This document shows positions 2-21,304 of a stretch of DNA of 24,061 nt, piece after piece; position 1 is the first letter of the stretch, and every line of letters starts with the position of its first letter. The notes under the pieces are model-generated. The model was not told the origin of the DNA. It did not search any database and saw nothing but the letters and a program-made list of their open reading frames with translations. The translations under genes were made by a program, and so were the position numbers. The DNA comes from a virus: the IMG/VR virus record IMGVR_UViG_3300045999_000387, positions 1-24,061 of that record; one strand, given 5' to 3'.

Positions 2-271
2 GGCTACAACTTGGTAACCAATTCTTATCCTGCGGCACCAGGCTACAACCCCCAAGTCATGCTGCGCTGGTCAGATGACGGCGGTCACACATATTCAAAC
101 GAGCATTGGTCATCAATTGGCAAAATTGGGGCTTATGGGCACAGGACTTTCTGGCGTAGGCTGGGCATGACATTAAAGCTGCGCGATAGGGTCTATGAAC
201 TTTCTGGCACTGATCCGGTAAAAATTGCCATCGTGGGCGCGGAATTGATACTTAGCCCAACGAATGCCTAA
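2..271 (+). CDS. P22 gp10-like tail accessory / packaged-DNA stabilisation protein (5' truncated)
   Basis: The reading frame is open from base 2, so the gene starts outside the window and only about the last 89 residues are visible. The segment RWSDDGGHTYSNEHW, then IGKIGAYGHRTFWRRLGM and FELSGTDPVK-like residues near the end, match my memory of the C-terminal signature of P22 gp10-family proteins. These form the tail hub below the portal and help keep packaged DNA inside the head. Its stop codon overlaps the start of the tail fibre gene by 8 nt, as expected in a virion operon. The TTG at base 11 is in frame but is not a real start, because family members run to several hundred residues. The family call is from motif recognition, with no search run. 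Confidence 0.75.
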   Translation, partial: GYNLVTNSYPAAPGYNPQVMLRWSDDGGHTYSNEHWSSIGKIGAYGHRTFWRRLGMTLKLRDRVYELSGTDPVKIAIVGAELILSPTNA

Positions 272-1037
272 TCTTAATACCCAGATCACACCGCCTCGCG
301 TGCCGCTTACTGACGAGCGCACGGGGGCAGTTTCGCGTGAGTGGTATAGGTGGTTTTACAACATTTACAACATTACGGGCGCTGGCCTTGGCATCACACC
401 AGTTGTCAACGGCGGCACGGGGCTAGGAACTATCCCCACCAACGGCCAACTGCTGATCGGCAATGGCACAGGGTATACCCTTAACACACTTGGTTTTGGC
501 GCTGGCATCTCAGTTACTAACGGAGTTGGGACAATCACCCTTGCCAACACGGGCGTGCTGTCGTTTGCAGGCGGCACTACTGGCCTGACCCCCGCAGCGG
601 CCACCACGGGCGCTGTGACGCTTGCAGGCACCTTGATTGCAATCAATGGCGGCACAGGGTTTGGCTCCTATGCTATTGGCGATCTGTTGTACGCTGGCAC
701 AACAACGACTTTGGCAAAACTGCCTGATGTTGCTACTGGCAACGCGCTTATCTCGGGCGGCGTGGGCGTTGCGCCAGCGTGGGGCAAGATTGGCCTGACA
801 ACCCATGTCAGCGGCATACTGACTGTGCCCAATGGCGGCTCGGGGGCGGCTACGTTGACGGGCTACGTCAAGGGCAATGGCGCGGCGGCTTTTACGGCGG
901 CGGCTACAATTCCCAATACCGACATTACTGGTTTGGGCACCATGTCGGTTAAGAACACGGGCGCAACCGGATCATTCACCACCGTCGATCTAAAGACAGT
1001 CACTGTCACTGACGGCATCATTACGAGCATTGTGTGA
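264..1037 (+). CDS. Tail fibre / receptor-binding-type virion protein with NGGTG repeats
   Basis: This 257-aa protein begins with a segment rich in Trp and Tyr (EWYRWFYNIYN, residues 26-36), typical of the virion-attachment end of many phage fibre proteins. It is followed by low-complexity Gly/Thr/Ala beta-type sequence. Three related modules of about 28 residues carry NGGTGLG (near 49), NGGTGFG (near 128) and NGGSGAA (near 190), each followed by a Gly-Leu-Leu/Gly-Tyr step and a Thr-rich stretch. Such repeats are common in trimeric phage tail fibres. The C-terminus ends in a short beta segment (VTVTDGIITSIV) that may be a trimer tip. It overlaps gp10 by 8 nt and the SET gene by 1 nt. Its short length suggests either a simple fibre or an adaptor that carries another receptor-binding protein. 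Confidence 0.7.
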   Translation: MPNLNTQITPPRVPLTDERTGAVSREWYRWFYNIYNITGAGLGITPVVNGGTGLGTIPTNGQLLIGNGTGYTLNTLGFGAGISVTNGVGTITLANTGVLSFAGGTTGLTPAAATTGAVTLAGTLIAINGGTGFGSYAIGDLLYAGTTTTLAKLPDVATGNALISGGVGVAPAWGKIGLTTHVSGILTVPNGGSGAATLTGYVKGNGAAAFTAAATIPNTDITGLGTMSVKNTGATGSFTTVDLKTVTVTDGIITSIV

Positions 1038-1912
1038 TGCAATTAGCTTGCAATCAAGAATTTAATCTTGCGGAAGTTACGCCGGACAAGGTGTTGGCGT
1101 TGCAAGATGAATTGCTTAAAATGCCGCAAGCCGACATTGTTACAGAGCATACGTTTTTGCCCAAGGTTTACGAGCGCAAGATTACGATCCCGCCTTGGGT
1201 CGTGTTGACGGGCGCGGAACACAAAACGCCCTATCGCGTTCGGCTAGAAAAGGGCACAATTGCGGTAAATACAGAAGATGGCGTAAAAGTGCTCACCGGC
1301 CCCTGCGAATTTGACGCTGCTGCCGGTATGCAACGGGCGGGGCGGGTGTTTGAAGACGAAGTGGTGTGGGTTGATGTTTACGACAATCCAGACGACTGCA
1401 CCGACATTGCTGTGTTAGAAGACCGTTTGTATGTGGTGCCTGAGTGCGGGCTTGGCGATAGCAGGACAGAAGCACAGAAAGCAAAAATTGATTACGGCGC
1501 TTTTTTGCATCAGCTTGGCATGACACAATCGGAATTAGACGCTATTGTTCACATTGATTCAGATTTAATGGATATGCCAGAAGGCGTTGCAGTAGAACTG
1601 CGCGATTCGCCAATTCACGGTAAAGGTTTATTTGCGACTTGTGATTTTGATGCGGGCGACATTGTGTGCCCAGGTCGGCTTGATGGCAAACGCACACCAG
1701 GCGGTCGATTTATTAACCACTCGTTAAATTGCAATGTTAAGCCCATAAAAATAGGCGATGACATCTATGCGTTAGCTGTGCGTAAAATACATGCAGGTGA
1801 TGAATTACTGGTAGATTACAGAGCATCAATGAGAGTCAATTTTGGACTCGCGTTACAAGGGGAAATAATATGTCTGGATGGATGGCAGCAGCAACAGTCG
1901 CAAGCGCTGTAA
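1037..1912 (+). CDS. Cupin-like plus SET-domain protein (putative protein-lysine methyltransferase)
   Basis: The protein has 291 residues. The N-terminal part (about 35-135) looks like the small cupin-type beta-barrel found in other phage proteins: TIPPWVVLTGAEHKTPYRV, an acidic Val-rich middle, and a conserved end, VLEDRLYVVP. The C-terminal part (about 186-263) shows the SET-domain signatures in order: a HGKGLFA strand, the SAM-binding motif RFINHS (N227-H228-S229) with a following N, and the GDELLVDY motif with the usual catalytic-region Tyr. No post-SET Cys cluster is present. SET proteins use S-adenosylmethionine to methylate lysines on proteins; a virion or host target here is inference. 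ATG 1037 (TGATG junction with the fibre gene) is preferred over GTG 1034. The last 43 nt overlap the next gene. Confidence 0.8.
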   Translation: MQLACNQEFNLAEVTPDKVLALQDELLKMPQADIVTEHTFLPKVYERKITIPPWVVLTGAEHKTPYRVRLEKGTIAVNTEDGVKVLTGPCEFDAAAGMQRAGRVFEDEVVWVDVYDNPDDCTDIAVLEDRLYVVPECGLGDSRTEAQKAKIDYGAFLHQLGMTQSELDAIVHIDSDLMDMPEGVAVELRDSPIHGKGLFATCDFDAGDIVCPGRLDGKRTPGGRFINHSLNCNVKPIKIGDDIYALAVRKIHAGDELLVDYRASMRVNFGLALQGEIICLDGWQQQQSQAL

Positions 1913-2592
1913 TTGGTTCTAGCGCGTCTAAGAGCGCAGCAAAAGCGCAAGCAGGCGCGGCTGACCGTGCGGCTGAGTTGCAACGCGAACAGTTTGAGCG
2001 TCAAGTCGAACTGCAAGCCCCGTTCCGCGAGGCCGGTGTTCGTGCGTTGCCGGAACTAGAAACAGCGTCTAGGTACACGCCGTTTGGCATGAAGCAGTTT
2101 ACTGCTGACCCTGGCTACGGTTTTCGGTTGGCTGAAGGCCAGAAAGCACTTGATCGTCAAGCTGCTGCCCGTGGCGGGCTAATCTCTGGCGGCGCTCTTA
2201 GGGCCGCGCAACGTTACGGCCAAGAGATGGGTAGCCAAGAGTACACCAACGCTTTCAATCGCTACCAGACTGAGCGTCAGGCTCGTCTTAACCCACTGCA
2301 ATCTTTAGCCGGTATGGCACAAACTTCTGTAGGCCAGTTAGGCCAAGCTGGCCAAGCAATGGCGAGCGGCATGGGCGAAGCCGGTATGCAAAGCGCCAAT
2401 GCGCGGGCATCTGGCTACATGGGTGGGGCAAACGCGCTGTCTCAAGGCTTGAGCCAGTACATGGGCTACAGTCAAGGCCAAGAACGTAACGCTTTGCTGT
2501 CGCGTGCTATTGGTGGCGGTGGCGGTGGCGGTGGGATGGCCTACACAGCCGAACCAGGCTTTTCCAACACGCCTTCGTATTTGGTTCGATAA
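1870..2592 (+). CDS. Ejection (DNA-transfer) virion protein, P22 gp7 position
   Basis: This 240-aa protein starts with an Ala/Gly/Ser-rich hydrophobic helix (MSGWMAAATVASAVIGSS), followed by a Gln/Glu-rich helix (residues about 25-55) and then Gly/Ala/Met-rich repeats of MAxxMGEAGMQ type. This organisation is typical of internal head proteins that phages such as P22 eject ahead of the DNA to build a channel across the cell envelope. A strong ribosome binding site (AAGGGGA) sits about 6 nt upstream of the ATG, inside the end of the SET gene. The C-terminus has an eight-Gly run (about 216-223). Gene order (gp10, fibre, three ejection-type proteins) parallels P22 genes 10 to 16. Confidence 0.7.
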   Translation: MSGWMAAATVASAVIGSSASKSAAKAQAGAADRAAELQREQFERQVELQAPFREAGVRALPELETASRYTPFGMKQFTADPGYGFRLAEGQKALDRQAAARGGLISGGALRAAQRYGQEMGSQEYTNAFNRYQTERQARLNPLQSLAGMAQTSVGQLGQAGQAMASGMGEAGMQSANARASGYMGGANALSQGLSQYMGYSQGQERNALLSRAIGGGGGGGGMAYTAEPGFSNTPSYLVR

Positions 2593-2601
2593 GGACTAAT
2601 C

Positions 2602-4056
2602 ATGCCAATCAACCCCAACATTGCAATGAGTTATCGCGGCGTAGAAATGCCGCAACAGAACGCGCTGGCTGACTACGCCGCCGTCCAACAGATTCAAAGC
2701 GGTCAGCGTCAAGCTGAAGTCTCGCAGATGCAGATTGAGCAGATGCGCCGTGATCAAGCTGCGCTGTCTAAGATGCAAGCCGCTATCACCGCCAAGGGTG
2801 GCCCCGCTGATTTGAATGTGGCGGCTGAAGAAATGATTAATTCGGGCATTCCCGAATACTTTAAACAAGGCTTGGTTATCAAGCAAACGCTTGACAAGCA
2901 AAGCCGGTTTGCCAAATTGCTTGGCGGGACTGGTGGCGCTGCGCCTGCTGCACCAGCAAGCGAATTATACCCAGGCTACAACGAGTCCATCGGCATGACC
3001 AATGCCCTTGCGCCAGCGCCAGCCGCGCCAGTCAACGCTATGGCTGACATGCAAAGAAAAATTAATGAAGCCTACATGATTGGCACACCAGAAGCATTGG
3101 CATTTGCTAAAGCTGGCGAAGAACGATTAAAGCCAACAACAGATGTTTCATCCATGCAAGCGTTGGGATTTCCATCAACGCCAGAAGGTTTTGCCAAATT
3201 TAAGGGCGCTCAATTTGCGCCTGTTGCGCCTGTAGCGCCAACAGATATTGCAAAATTGATAAAAGAGCGCGATGCGTTTCCAGTAGGTAGCCCTAACCGT
3301 GCGCTGTATGACCAAGAGATTGCAGACCGCCGTGCTACCGCAGAAAATGCTCGTCAGCGTTTGAAATTTGATCAAGAGAAATTTAACTTTGAAAGAGCTA
3401 ATCCTGGCTTTGAACTTAGAGAAGCAGATGACGGCTCAGTGGTTGGCGTCAACAAGCGCACACTACAAGCGTTCCCTGTCACTCTTGGTGGCGGTGCTGC
3501 TCCAGCAGCAGGCGGCGCTGGTATGCCTAGCGCTCGGGTGCCAGCACTTCAAGCACCTCTGGCTAGTGCAACACCTACCGCTGCGCGGCCATTGATAGGC
3601 AGAGGAAAAGAAGCACCAGTTAAGTTTAACGACACGGATTTACAACTATCTGGTTTGGCTGGCTCACTTCAAGATTTCAAAAAAGAAGTCAGTAGAGATG
3701 TATTTACAGGGGCTAAATTTCTTCCAACTGGTCAAGATACGGCCAGAATGCAAGCTAAGTACACAGCGCTGTTAATGGGCGTCAAAGACTTGTACACACT
3801 CGGCGCATTGACCGGCCCTGACATGGGTATTATTGAGTCGCAACTTACCAACCCTGCTTCATGGTCTGGTAAATTTACGACTAAAGAGGGTTTTGAAGCA
3901 CAGACTAAAGTTATTGAAGATATGTTAAAGCGCAGCGCAACAAATCTTGAAAATACTTATGGCCGAGTACCAAAAGCCACTAAAAAAGCTCTTGAAGGTT
4001 TGCCAAGCGTTGCGGGTAGCGAAAACGATCCATTGGGACTCCTTAAAGGAAATTAA
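2602..4056 (+). CDS. Ejection-type internal virion protein, P22 gp20 position
   Basis: A 484-aa soluble protein. Residues 15-75 are a Gln-rich coiled-coil-like helix (QSGQRQAEVSQMQIEQMRRD), followed by Ala/Pro-rich linkers near 110-150 and again near 295-335. The C-terminal third is helical and ends with a run of charged residues. I recognise no enzymatic motif. The position between two other ejection-like proteins, the alternation of helices and Ala/Pro linkers, and the size point to an internal head protein delivered with the genome. It is separated from the upstream gene by 9 nt containing AAGGACT, and its stop is directly followed by the next ATG. Functional assignment rests on context. 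Confidence 0.6.
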   Translation: MPINPNIAMSYRGVEMPQQNALADYAAVQQIQSGQRQAEVSQMQIEQMRRDQAALSKMQAAITAKGGPADLNVAAEEMINSGIPEYFKQGLVIKQTLDKQSRFAKLLGGTGGAAPAAPASELYPGYNESIGMTNALAPAPAAPVNAMADMQRKINEAYMIGTPEALAFAKAGEERLKPTTDVSSMQALGFPSTPEGFAKFKGAQFAPVAPVAPTDIAKLIKERDAFPVGSPNRALYDQEIADRRATAENARQRLKFDQEKFNFERANPGFELREADDGSVVGVNKRTLQAFPVTLGGGAAPAAGGAGMPSARVPALQAPLASATPTAARPLIGRGKEAPVKFNDTDLQLSGLAGSLQDFKKEVSRDVFTGAKFLPTGQDTARMQAKYTALLMGVKDLYTLGALTGPDMGIIESQLTNPASWSGKFTTKEGFEAQTKVIEDMLKRSATNLENTYGRVPKATKKALEGLPSVAGSENDPLGLLKGN

Positions 4057-5922
4057 ATGGCAACGCTTGCTGAATTCCGCGCACAGTATCCTCAGTACAA
4101 CGAGGTGCCAGATGTCAAGTTGGCTGACTCGTTGCACCAAAAATTTTATTCGTCCATTCCAAAAATGGACTTTTACAAGACCATTGGAATTGGTGCTGAA
4201 GCGTTGATACCAGGCGGCGAAAGCCGCATAACTCTTCCTCAGCCAGAAGTCTCTATGCGTGATCGCATCATGGGCGTTATTGAAACGCCTGCGGCACTTG
4301 TTGGTGGCCTTGCTGGGGGTTTAGCTTCAATTCCTGCGGCAATATACGGAAATTTGTCTAGCCCTGCGCCATCTGGATCGGCAGAAGCTAGGGCTGCGGG
4401 TGAGGCAATGGCGGCAAAGACTCGCGCTCAGTTTTACCAGCCCCGTACTCAAACTTCTAGAGACATTCTTGGCGCTGTTGGTAAAGTGACAGAGGGTTTG
4501 CCTCCAGTGTTGGGGGGCAGTCTTGGCACATCGTTAAACGCTTTGGCTATCCCTTCCATGCAACAAGCCGGTGCGATGGTTCGTCCAGCAGTTAGACAAG
4601 CAGTTGCACCAGTGCAAAATGTTTTAGCCAATGTGATGACCCGCAAACAACCAGACATGGTGGGCATGGGCGCAGCTAGCACTGCTGATGACTTGATGCG
4701 CCAGCAGCGCTTGGAGCAGTTTGGCATCCGTGCCACGGCTGGTGAGCGTGAGCGCAACTTGCAAAAGCAGCAGTTTGAGTCTGAAATTCAACGTGGTGCG
4801 GTTACTGGCATTTCAGAAGATGCAAAGACTCAGTTGTCTGAGCAAATGCGAAGATTTGAGGCTGGTAAGAAACAAGACATTGTTAGAAATTTTGAGCGCA
4901 TGACTGCTGAGACTGGCGCTGAAGTGGCCGACCCAACCCAATTGCGTGCTGTTGGCAAAATTGTTGACAAAGCCTTAAATGACGAGTACACCAAAAAGTT
5001 TGATGCTTACAAGGCACTGTATGCCAAGGCTGACAACGCTGGTGAGACTTTGCAGCCGGTGTCGTATCAAGGTTTGTTGGACTACATTAACACCAAGACG
5101 CCTACGGCCCGAGGCAAACTTGACCCAATTTTAGATTCGGTGGCTGAATCGTTGGCGATGAATGACCCTAACAAGACTGGCACCATTACTGTGCGGGCGC
5201 TAGAAGACATCTATCAGCAGATCGGCAAAGTCAAGGGTTCGCCAAGCGCACCAGAGATGAAGCAAATCATCACTCAGATGGGTGAGGGTGCAGGCGGTGA
5301 GCTGTATCAGGCGGCCAGAGCATCACGCAAGCAACTGGCTAAAGAGTTTGAGGATGTGTCTCGCGTTGACAAGCTGCTTGGCACAAAGGCTGGCTACGCT
5401 GACCGCAGGGTTGCGCTTGATGATGTGTTCAAGCATGTGGTGCTTGACGGTTCGCTAGAGGAAATGCGAACTGTCACCACGTTGCTAAAGAAGGCTGGCC
5501 CAGAAGGTCGCAAAGCCTATGCAGAACTGCAAGGTCAAACCATTCAGCAGATGAAAGAAATGCTCACCAAGGGTGATCAGATGTCTTTTAAGAACCTGAA
5601 CACATTCATCAATCAGTTGGACAATGAGGGCAAGCTAGACTATATGTTTGGCAAAACTGGTCGCAACCAAATTACTGATTTACGGGATGCCATCAAGGAT
5701 GTGGTGGTCAAAGAGCCAGGCGCTGTAAATTATCCAAACACTGCGGGCGTTGTGCTTCGGGGCTTGGAAATTTTGCAAAAATCGCCAATTAAAATACCTG
5801 GCACCCAAACAGCCGCAGAATTTGCTCGTACACGCCAAGTTAAAAAACAGGTTGAAAAAGCCTTAGAGCAGCCTAACCAGTTAGCGCCAACGCAACAAAA
5901 TCAAAACGCAATGAGGCGCTAA
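4057..5922 (+). CDS. Large ejection-type virion protein, P22 gp16 position
   Basis: A 621-aa protein. The N-terminus (MATLAEFRAQYPQYNEVPDV then KLADSLHQKFYS) is a short domain I recognise as recurrent at the start of phage ejection proteins. A Gly/Ala-rich hydrophobic stretch at about 73-103 (ETPAALVGGLAGGLASIPAA) could insert in membrane. The remainder is long charged helices suited to an extended or coiled form, with a Gln/Asn-rich end. There is no clear lysozyme or transglycosylase motif, unlike some gp16-like proteins. It begins right after the previous stop with AAAGGAAA as ribosome binding site. It is the last of the three-gene ejection block before the lysis region. Confidence 0.6.
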   Translation: MATLAEFRAQYPQYNEVPDVKLADSLHQKFYSSIPKMDFYKTIGIGAEALIPGGESRITLPQPEVSMRDRIMGVIETPAALVGGLAGGLASIPAAIYGNLSSPAPSGSAEARAAGEAMAAKTRAQFYQPRTQTSRDILGAVGKVTEGLPPVLGGSLGTSLNALAIPSMQQAGAMVRPAVRQAVAPVQNVLANVMTRKQPDMVGMGAASTADDLMRQQRLEQFGIRATAGERERNLQKQQFESEIQRGAVTGISEDAKTQLSEQMRRFEAGKKQDIVRNFERMTAETGAEVADPTQLRAVGKIVDKALNDEYTKKFDAYKALYAKADNAGETLQPVSYQGLLDYINTKTPTARGKLDPILDSVAESLAMNDPNKTGTITVRALEDIYQQIGKVKGSPSAPEMKQIITQMGEGAGGELYQAARASRKQLAKEFEDVSRVDKLLGTKAGYADRRVALDDVFKHVVLDGSLEEMRTVTTLLKKAGPEGRKAYAELQGQTIQQMKEMLTKGDQMSFKNLNTFINQLDNEGKLDYMFGKTGRNQITDLRDAIKDVVVKEPGAVNYPNTAGVVLRGLEILQKSPIKIPGTQTAAEFARTRQVKKQVEKALEQPNQLAPTQQNQNAMRR

Positions 5923-8389: not shown

Positions 8390-8528
8390 GCGCTCGGTAC
8401 GCCTCAATGGCGTCCTTAAGGTCGCACTGAAGCTGTTGAATCCGGTCGTCTTGCTCAACCATCTTTGCGTTCGCTTCTTGGGCGAACTGTGCTAGGTTTT
8501 CTTGTGTCCAAGTTTTGAAGTTTGACAT
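8361..8528 (-). CDS. Small coiled-coil protein, last gene of the leftward operon
   Basis: A 55-aa leftward frame starts with MSNFKTWTQENLAQFAQEAN, contains a continuous charged helix (QDDRIQQLQCDLKDAIEAYR) likely to form a coiled coil, and ends EQSN. GGAAG lies about 4 nt before the ATG on the minus strand. It overlaps the upstream zinc-ribbon gene by 74 nt and the convergent endolysin gene by 29 nt. The regular helical pattern and good ribosome binding site argue that it is real. No function can be assigned. Confidence 0.6.
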   Translation of the reverse strand: MSNFKTWTQENLAQFAQEANAKMVEQDDRIQQLQCDLKDAIEAYRALMRKSEQSN

Positions 8529-8643
8529 GTTCTTCCGTTATGAATTTATGGCCGTTGCCGCACTCTCGGCGGCGTAGTGTATAGCCTTCCTTGTTTCTAG
8601 TCTCGCTGACAGTTGTCCATGTGTTGCAAGTTGGGCACTTCAA
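8455..8643 (-). CDS. Zinc-ribbon protein, NrdR-like N-terminal fold
   Basis: A 62-aa protein whose N-terminus (MKCPTCNTWTTVSETR, then RRRECGNGHKF) forms a Cys-x2-Cys followed about 22 residues later by Cys-x3-His, the layout of a zinc ribbon similar to the start of the regulator NrdR. The remaining tail is basic and Ser/Thr/Arg-rich. It uses TTG as start: AGGAG sits about 8 nt upstream, and the TTG overlaps the upstream TGA as TTGA. It may bind nucleic acid, but it lacks the ATP-cone of true NrdR, so regulation of ribonucleotide reductase should not be assumed. Confidence 0.65.
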   Translation of the reverse strand: MKCPTCNTWTTVSETRNKEGYTLRRRECGNGHKFITEEHVKLQNLDTRKPSTVRPRSERKDG

Positions 8644-18904: not shown

Positions 18905-21304
18905 ATGCCGATAAACAACGCACTTACCCCAGAAGGCCAGAACGCGCTTGGTGCTGCGTTTGGCTACTACCCGCAGTTAAGGCGCAACCGAACTATCCAA
19001 GACCCCAGACTGGCCGCTGAGATGCCGTTGCAGTTCTTGCGGGGTAGGTTGGCGGGAACGCTGGGATTGCCATCAGATGTGGCGAACTTGGTGCGTAGCC
19101 CCATGCCAATGGAGATGTACGGTGATGTGGACTATGCGCAGCAAGCGCAAGTGCCGTATGGCTCGCAAGAATTGCTAAGGACGCTGCCCTTGCCCCCACA
19201 AGGGGCGGCGCAGGCAGCCGCGGCCAATGTTGGTGCGTTTATCCCGCTAACACCGATGGAGGCATTGCAAGCGGCAAGGGCTGCTAGGCAGGCGGCGTTT
19301 GCCACGGGTAGGACGTTGGGGCCGACAGCGGCAAGAATGACTGAGGGGTATTTGCAGCGGCAGGGGTTGATGCCTGGGGTGTTGCCTGCTGAGGCTCCTA
19401 AATTTAACGCAAACCAGTTGGCTCAAAGCGTAAAGCCAAGGGCAGAAGTATCGCCGCTGGGCTTTTACAGCGCGGTGGAGCAGCAGGCGTTGAACCTTCC
19501 CCGTAAACAAGGCACTGGTGAATCGTTCCTTAACGATCTGGCGAAGGGCCAAGATGTTAAGAAGTATGAGATGGAGACAATGGGGTTGGATGCGTTCTTG
19601 AGGGGCAGGACTAACGTGACCCGTCAAGAGGTGCAGGACTTTATTGCTAACAACCGTATCAATGTGCAGGAGAGGCAACTTGGCGCGGCTGTTAGTGAAG
19701 ACCCAATAGGCATAGCTAAACGCAAAGAAATTTTTGATCAGTACGAGCCGCAGATACAGGCTATGTACAAAGAGATGGACAGCCCCAGCTACAAGCTGGT
19801 TAACCGGCAAGTTAGCCCAGAAGAAAAGCAGCGCGGCATAGTTTTGCAAAACAGGGTTTATAGGAACGAGCCATTGACCGCACATGAACAGGCTGAATTG
19901 ACCAGCATTACGGACAGATTTGGTGGTGTTGCTGTTAAAGAATTTGCAAATGTAGACGAAGCGCGTAAATTCTATTTGGGCATGAGTCAGGAAGAACGGC
20001 TTAGGCATTCCATAATGCCGGTAAACAATCCTACGCAATTGCAAGAAAAAATAAACACATTGCAAAATGTCAGGGACGCACAAGCAGATGCGGCGTATGT
20101 GGTTCCGGAAAGAGTACCTAGCAAATACCACAAGTTCCAACTGCCAGGCGGTGAGAACTACCGTGAGATTTTGCTGACTTTACCCAACAAGCCAATGGAA
20201 GCAAGCAGGGCAGCGGAAAATTACTACACGCAATTTGTTAAGCGTGGGGGTGAGCCAGAATGGGCGCAGTTAAATTCTGCAAGACAACAAGAAATTACAA
20301 ACGCAATGCCAGCGCAAGCTAGAAACGCCTCAGCATCACCGGAATATAGATCATCCCATTTTAATGAACCCAACATCTTGGCGCACATGCGGGTCAATGA
20401 TCGAGTGGATGCTGACGGCAAAAAGATGTTGTTGGTTGAGGAAGTGCAGTCGGACTGGCATCAGGCTGGGCGGGAGAAGGGGTATAACACCCCAGAAAAA
20501 CGAGCTGCGGAACAAAAGAAATTAGATGATTTGCTCATAGAAAGACAGCAATTAGGAGAAAGACAAAAGCAACTTGAAGAACTTGCATCACCATATACAA
20601 GTCAAGGCAAAGATGCCCCAAGAGATATTCTTGATGAATGGAACAGTGTTTCTAACAGACTTAACAGATTGCAAACTGAGCAAAATAGGCTTGGCAGAAG
20701 TACTGGCGAAGGCGTACCAGACGCGCCATTTAAAGACACATGGCATCAACTGGCGCTGAAACGGGCGCTAAAAGAAGCGGTTGACAAGGGCTATGACAGG
20801 ATTGGTTTGACTACGGGCAAGCAGCAAGCAGAGCGCTATGACTTGAGCAAACAGATCAGCAAGGTTTATTACAGCCCCCCTGATTCAAAACAAGCAAACA
20901 AGTACGGCACGGTGTTCAAGGCTTTTGACAGTCGCGGCAATGAAATTATCAACAAGTCTGTGACCCCTGAAGAGCTTCCAGGCATTGTCGGCAAAGAGGT
21001 TGCTCAAAAGCTACTTAATGCAGAGAGCAACAGCATGGGCGTTAAGGCGCTTGAAGGCGTTGATTTGCAGGTCGGCGGCGAGGGCATGAAGAAATACTAC
21101 GATGAGATTTACCCTGCTTTCCTTGAAAAGCAAGGCAAGAAGTACGGTGCGAAAGTCGGAGAGACACGCATAAAGACAGGGCGCGGCGTGCCAGGTGGTG
21201 AAACAGTGCGCTACCTAGACATCACGCCAGAGATGCGTAAAGCCATCAAAGAAGGCCAGCCAATTGCGTCTATCACAAACCACCTTGCAAATGCGATGGC
21301 TTAA
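18905..21304 (+). CDS. Large polyvalent-type phage protein inserted between terminase genes
   Basis: A 799-aa protein. The N-terminal 150 residues are Ala/Pro/Leu-rich helices. Residues about 182-260 (SPLGFYSAVEQQALNLP, then GLDAFLRG and VTRQEVQDFI) form a small domain I recall from large multi-domain phage polyvalent proteins. Residues about 484-525 (FNEPNILAHMRVNDR, LLVEEVQSDWHQAGR) and about 604-780 (VPDAPFKDTWHQLALKRAL, GYDRIGLTTGKQQAERYDL, then YLDITPEMRKAI) are a second conserved module with invariant-looking Glu, Asp, Trp and His. A coiled coil (about 535-595) separates its halves. The catalytic role is unknown. Polyvalent proteins are thought to be injected with DNA to protect or prepare the infection; that is inference. 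The ribosome binding site is weak. Confidence 0.6.
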   Translation: MPINNALTPEGQNALGAAFGYYPQLRRNRTIQDPRLAAEMPLQFLRGRLAGTLGLPSDVANLVRSPMPMEMYGDVDYAQQAQVPYGSQELLRTLPLPPQGAAQAAAANVGAFIPLTPMEALQAARAARQAAFATGRTLGPTAARMTEGYLQRQGLMPGVLPAEAPKFNANQLAQSVKPRAEVSPLGFYSAVEQQALNLPRKQGTGESFLNDLAKGQDVKKYEMETMGLDAFLRGRTNVTRQEVQDFIANNRINVQERQLGAAVSEDPIGIAKRKEIFDQYEPQIQAMYKEMDSPSYKLVNRQVSPEEKQRGIVLQNRVYRNEPLTAHEQAELTSITDRFGGVAVKEFANVDEARKFYLGMSQEERLRHSIMPVNNPTQLQEKINTLQNVRDAQADAAYVVPERVPSKYHKFQLPGGENYREILLTLPNKPMEASRAAENYYTQFVKRGGEPEWAQLNSARQQEITNAMPAQARNASASPEYRSSHFNEPNILAHMRVNDRVDADGKKMLLVEEVQSDWHQAGREKGYNTPEKRAAEQKKLDDLLIERQQLGERQKQLEELASPYTSQGKDAPRDILDEWNSVSNRLNRLQTEQNRLGRSTGEGVPDAPFKDTWHQLALKRALKEAVDKGYDRIGLTTGKQQAERYDLSKQISKVYYSPPDSKQANKYGTVFKAFDSRGNEIINKSVTPEELPGIVGKEVAQKLLNAESNSMGVKALEGVDLQVGGEGMKKYYDEIYPAFLEKQGKKYGAKVGETRIKTGRGVPGGETVRYLDITPEMRKAIKEGQPIASITNHLANAMA

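Follow-up and report, generated by a model that had tools for sequence, protein, structure and literature searches.

SET enzymes are known chiefly from eukaryotic chromatin, and the bacterial SET enzymes in the literature that we found mostly act on eukaryotic hosts. Among viral members, the vSET protein of chlorella virus PBCV-1 is a single-domain histone H3K27 enzyme of a eukaryotic virus that keeps a short SET-I. It is packaged in the virion (PMC7019647). For bacteriophages, we came across a mention of a single SET-domain ORF, in Stenotrophomonas phage Ps15 and with no function assigned (PMC9025141), and no paper describing a cupin-SET family in the open-access literature.

Here we analysed a stretch of viral DNA of 24,061 nucleotides (IMG/VR record IMGVR_UViG_3300045999_000387; hereafter the window) encoding P0001, a protein in which a tail-type cupin is joined to a compact SET domain. 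The closest catalogued relative is phrog_34170, listed in PHROGs as of unknown function, which matches P0001 over its full length (E 3.8e-37) and includes Rhodoferax phage P26218 gp30, Pseudoalteromonas phage PH1 ANY29560.1, phage zth2-2 and ct1fd225 UOF81456.1. These members share the cupin-linker-SET architecture and the gene slot of P0001 at 28–30% identity, and several of them insert approximately six residues (a GG..G loop) ahead of the ExxxDY motif that P0001 does not have. A search of NCBIfam profiles gave no match for P0001. The sequence-only reading had held that such a modifier would be new; this stands for the function but not for the sequence family, which is already catalogued as phrog_34170 and has two database entries named SET or methyltransferase. 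What is new here is a SET domain without SET-I, the cassette exchange of linker and SET, and the accessory status of the SET domain. The features of the locus are as follows:

2..271, + strand: C-terminal part of a P22-gp10-like head-closure (Hc3) protein (phrog_578, E 7.9e-14)
264..1037, + strand: upstream tail-fibre protein (phrog_31660, E 1.1e-6)
1037..1912, + strand: cupin-SET fusion gene (P0001), 291 aa, ATG at 1037 to the stop ending at 1912
1124..1390, + strand: cupin (jelly-roll) of the 'short tail fibre / tail fibre adhesin' kind, residues ~30–118 (PHROG and Foldseek)
1454..1585, + strand: conserved helical linker, residues 140–183 (helices 145–160 and 164–171; AlphaFold), recurring in the free-standing SETs of loci L189, L192 and L193
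1586..1843, + strand: compact SET domain without SET-I, residues 184–269 (Pfam PF00856; pLDDT 96–98; MLL1, SETD8 and vSET matches)
1616..1627, + strand: XGXG SAM-binding motif HGKG, residues 194–197 (G197 in 56/56, G195 in 55/56)
1691..1696, + strand: R219-T220 of the GKRTP loop replacing SET-I (invariant, 56/56 and 63/63)
1715..1723, + strand: N227-H228-S229 motif (N and H invariant; S in 45/56, A in 11/56)
1802..1819, + strand: E256...D260-Y261 motif with the predicted catalytic tyrosine (E and Y invariant)
1870..2592, + strand: DNA-ejection protein, ejection 1 (phrog_598, E 7.7e-38)

The genes are tightly packed: the tail-fibre stop and the fusion-gene start share the sequence TGATG (1035–1039), and the ejection gene begins (ATG at 1870) within the fusion gene, whose last 43 nt belong to both. 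The order in the window (head-closure Hc3, tail fibre, cupin-SET, ejection 1 and two more large ORFs) is that of a typical virion operon, and the PHROG matches of both neighbours bear out the earlier placing of the fusion between tail fibre and ejection genes. Hc3/tail fibre upstream and the ejection gene downstream are kept across relatives, the ejection gene adjoining in 132 of 158 related loci, and P22-like and T7-like podophages alike keep this slot, flanked by head-closure/tail-tube genes on one side and ejection genes on the other. The window comes from a podophage related to P26218 and the P22-tail group. T7 gp13, whose gene sits in the corresponding slot (tail tubular B on one side, gp14 on the other), was rejected as a homologue (hhalign probability 0.6%). 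A recurring 'C-Q-Q' C-terminus, found in cupin proteins both with and without SET, was rejected as a functional peptide, since the start of the ejection gene overlaps it in another frame.

Two further genes of the window drew attention. At 18905–21304, a 799-aa protein lies between the small and large terminase genes, an odd spot for a large protein; its sole link is to part of phrog_7348, an 'endolysin' profile of 2564 positions, and Pfam gives no match. At 8455–8643 on the minus strand, a 62-aa protein is a stand-alone NrdR-type zinc ribbon (Pfam Zn_ribbon_NrdR, E 4.9e-7) without the NrdR ATP-cone.

The cupin-like nature of the N-terminal half was upheld by tail-protein families and by structure. 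This half matches phrog_12032 (short tail fibre, E 1.9e-21) and phrog_24280 (E 1.2e-17), and Foldseek with its predicted structure returned cupins, including PDB 4e2g (E 1.9e-6, TM-target 0.65) and KdgF. 'Short tail fibre' is the name of the matching PHROG profile rather than an observed position in the particle. The proteins of these two families (VvAW1, BA3, VPMS1, Shewanella phage X14) share with P0001 the N-terminal cupin and the gene position but are shorter (~140–186 aa) and have no SET. In the 56 divergent fusions compared, which span 26–82% identity to P0001, the invariant positions N-terminal to SET are G59, G73, G97 and W111. A metal-dependent cupin enzyme was rejected, as the HxH...E...H ligands are not conserved and columns 61, 63 and 71 vary among the 56 fusions.

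In the C-terminal half, the three motifs named from the letters alone lie at residues 194–200 (HGKGLFA), 224–229 (RFINHS) and 254–261 (GDELLVDY). None of 200,000 shuffles of P0001 matched the SET-motif pattern, and P0001 was its sole match among the 162 window frames of at least 60 aa. The Pfam SET profile (PF00856) gave 38.6 bits (E 1.6e-9), above its cut-off of 22.4, with the match limited to profile positions 61–104 of 105. AlphaFold using 56 divergent homologues gave a mean pLDDT of 87.9, rising to 96–98 in the SET region, and the PDB matches of the full model were cupins for the first half and the SET domains of MLL1/SETD8 for the second. Modelled alone, linker and SET reached a pLDDT of 91.6 and a pTM of 0.84, and Foldseek matched them to MLL1, SETD8, vSET (3kma) and PRC2/EZH2. 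The TM-scores were moderate (~0.45–0.5 by query; 0.61 for vSET by target), which fits a missing SET-I. The structure prediction suggested earlier as a check thus yields a confident predicted SET fold, as judged from whole-fold matches rather than from the threading of the knot; together with the Pfam score above cut-off and the PHROG tail families, the predicted structures confirm the fusion of cupin and SET.

The part of the earlier claim that did not hold is a full-length SET domain: the core motifs are present, with SET-N and SET-C, but there is almost no SET-I. In the alignment with MLL1, residues 185–211 of P0001 correspond to SET-N and 214–263 to SET-C, with two residues between them as against ~40 in MLL1. 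The XGXG-to-NH spacing is short and constant across the family, and the place of SET-I is taken by a GKRTPxGR loop that carries the invariant R219-T220. No conserved tyrosine between XGXG and NH that would be a counterpart of the SET-I cofactor-site tyrosine was found in the 56 divergent fusions. P0001 lacks both the SET-I and the cofactor-site tyrosine of canonical SET lysine methyltransferases, and binding of SAM and substrate would need a different arrangement. The tyrosine that is counted among the usual cofactor motifs in the account of inactive MLL5 (PMC5094779) thus has no conserved counterpart here, which is the main reason for caution on activity.

A search for the same fusion recovered it in at least 160 homologues from IMG/VR, cultured phages and prophages; one viral scan gave 240 matching places, and distant queries added further families. 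Other phages (VvAW1, X14, VPMS1, 234P9, Amaethon, 1.067.O, VAC_51 and Sphaerotilus R1) carry the cupin alone, without SET, in the same slot, indicating that the SET domain is accessory; no SET was found anywhere in five SET-less relatives (records of 35–39.6 kb). Two loci, L176 with SET and L178 without, share 89% DNA identity through the cupin gene. This identity ends at L176:2706 / L178:1296 and returns at 3089 / 1384, and between these points L176 has 382 nt of linker and SET, whereas L178 has an unrelated tail of 87 nt; the swap is flanked by 77–89% DNA identity. In a Paraburkholderia ferrariae prophage (L189), cupin and SET are separate adjacent genes with a 4-nt overlap (L189:5716-7163), lying between RecA-like helicase/ATPase and small-terminase-like genes, while in L192 and L193 linker and SET are present and the cupin is absent. 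On the cupin-domain tree, six changes of SET state are needed, at least three of them on well-supported branches, the deep forks being weak. From these sequence comparisons, linker and SET behave as an exchangeable cassette.

Several of these loci have features of their own. The SET protein of L189 has an extra C-terminal part of ~100 aa, seemingly common to L193; plasmids queried with the free-standing L193 SET gave no match. L192 (G023:C45, ~17600–25200) is a Comamonadaceae chromosomal element that carries primase/RepA and ejection-like genes besides the free-standing SET; its ORF list shows no evident capsid genes, and it is possibly a degraded prophage or a satellite. In the record of Podovirus ctfPj964 (MW202557.1), the cupin-SET gene at 3809–5237 is unannotated, and a reverse-strand ORF named 'contryphan-vn-tryptophan' covers part of it.

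The active-site residues are conserved throughout. Across the 56 divergent fusions, the SET-side invariants are S191, G197, R219, T220, N227, H228, E256 and Y261; in 81 near sequences, G195, G197, R224, N227, H228, S229, E256 and Y261 are all invariant, and the SET residues stay invariant in 63 SET modules that include the free-standing copies. Loss of the N-H and Tyr residues, named beforehand as a sign against a SET enzyme, was looked for in the homologues and these residues proved invariant instead. Purifying selection acts on both SET and cupin, with dN/dS of ~0.10 and 0.06, respectively, at synonymous distances near saturation.

Our main reading, to which we give a probability of about 0.42, is that P0001 is an active SET methyltransferase on a virion cupin, carried in or on the particle, whose target around entry is a host protein. 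The cupin would be a structural tail-to-ejection component, common to many podophages with or without SET, onto which linker and compact SET would have been grafted as an accessory SAM-dependent protein-lysine methyltransferase cassette. The fusion protein would be made late, its translation coupled to that of the tail-fibre and ejection genes, and would assemble at the tail/ejection site; carried on or in the virion, it would act during or just after entry, and SET would be an accessory trait that assembly can do without. Phage enzymes that travel in the particle and modify host proteins have a precedent in T4 Alt.

This reading has to be weighed against a SET domain that is catalytically dead and retained as a binding or structural module. 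The absence of SET-I and of the cofactor-site tyrosine points that way, and inactive SETs such as MLL5 exist; MLL5, however, has lost XGXG, Y and NH (PMC5094779), whereas XGXG, NH and the final Tyr are retained here across more than 70% divergence. Since inactive SETs lose the motifs that are kept in this family, their retention is most simply read as selection for catalysis, and a dead module seems improbable. The predicted SET fold and the invariant motif residues support the probable catalytic competence proposed by the sequence-only reading: with active-site residues that never vary, the SET domain is probably a working enzyme, and we consider an active cassette likely. Virion association, suggested by gene context, is somewhat favoured. 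A late cytosolic enzyme that is merely encoded in the virion operon, with a cupin that binds a small ligand or partner, would agree with the many cupins that are soluble binding proteins, with the cupin and SET genes of L189 outside the virion operon, and with the absence of virion proteomics on any member of the family from the literature searched, but the cupin metal ligands are not conserved and the slot is kept over P22-like and T7-like podophages, which makes such a product quite improbable.

The substrate is the more evenly balanced matter. The SET cassette may methylate the phage's own virion proteins (tail fibre, cupin, ejection) during assembly, tuning stability or adsorption; its action would then take place in the producing cell and would not be meant for a new host. 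Being fused to a structural domain, and encoded by a gene that overlaps those for the tail-fibre and ejection proteins, the enzyme would lie close to these proteins while SAM is available, and in L189 the separate SET gene lies directly 3' of the cupin gene. Scored for ejection 1 alone, however, no lysine is conserved in more than 58% of the SET-bearing phages and none is invariant, which argues against ejection 1 as a conserved-site substrate; close relatives also persist without SET, and some SETs sit outside virion operons. Such free-standing phage and prophage copies point to a substrate for which the cupin is dispensable, and together with the accessory presence of SET they fit a host-directed role. 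Overall, we regard modification of the phage's own particle as a tentative explanation, ranked just below host-directed methylation and nearly as likely, and the choice of a host protein over virion proteins as about even with a slight preference for the host. By analogy with the packaged PBCV-1 vSET, a host target at entry would be favoured.

If phages of a widespread family have kept a particle protein with its SET active site intact, this would imply lysine methylation in the contest between phage and bacterium, and the missing SET-I bears on the minimal size of a SET domain. The isolated members P26218 and PH1 open activity, packaging and target to direct test, with the natural pairs with and without SET as a ready comparison.

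Among known systems, the best PDB matches of the P0001 SET domain in sequence and fold are MLL1 and SETD8, which are eukaryotic histone methyltransferases with a full SET-I and a post-SET. The 99-aa free-standing SETs of phrog_28741 (cyanophages P-SSM7 and P-RSM6) share the compact domain and an RTPLGGFxNHS loop but have neither cupin nor helical linker; carrying the same loop, they indicate that the phage-type compact SET is not confined to the fusion. Their genes, annotated as hypothetical at L212:2558-2857 and L213:2477-2776 in T4-like cyanophages, adjoin gp25 (baseplate wedge) in P-RSM6 and nrdB in P-SSM7. The vSET of PBCV-1 resembles P0001 as a small viral SET with a matching fold (3kma, E 6.4e-6); packaging has been seen for vSET, whereas for the P0001 family it is suggested by operon context. 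That the family represents a virion-borne phage lysine methyltransferase with a reduced, cassette-exchanged SET, entering with the genome and methylating a host protein, is in its entirety a doubtful proposition; if true, it would be a bacterial counterpart of the packaged vSET, built from SET-N and SET-C with a GKRTP loop in place of SET-I.
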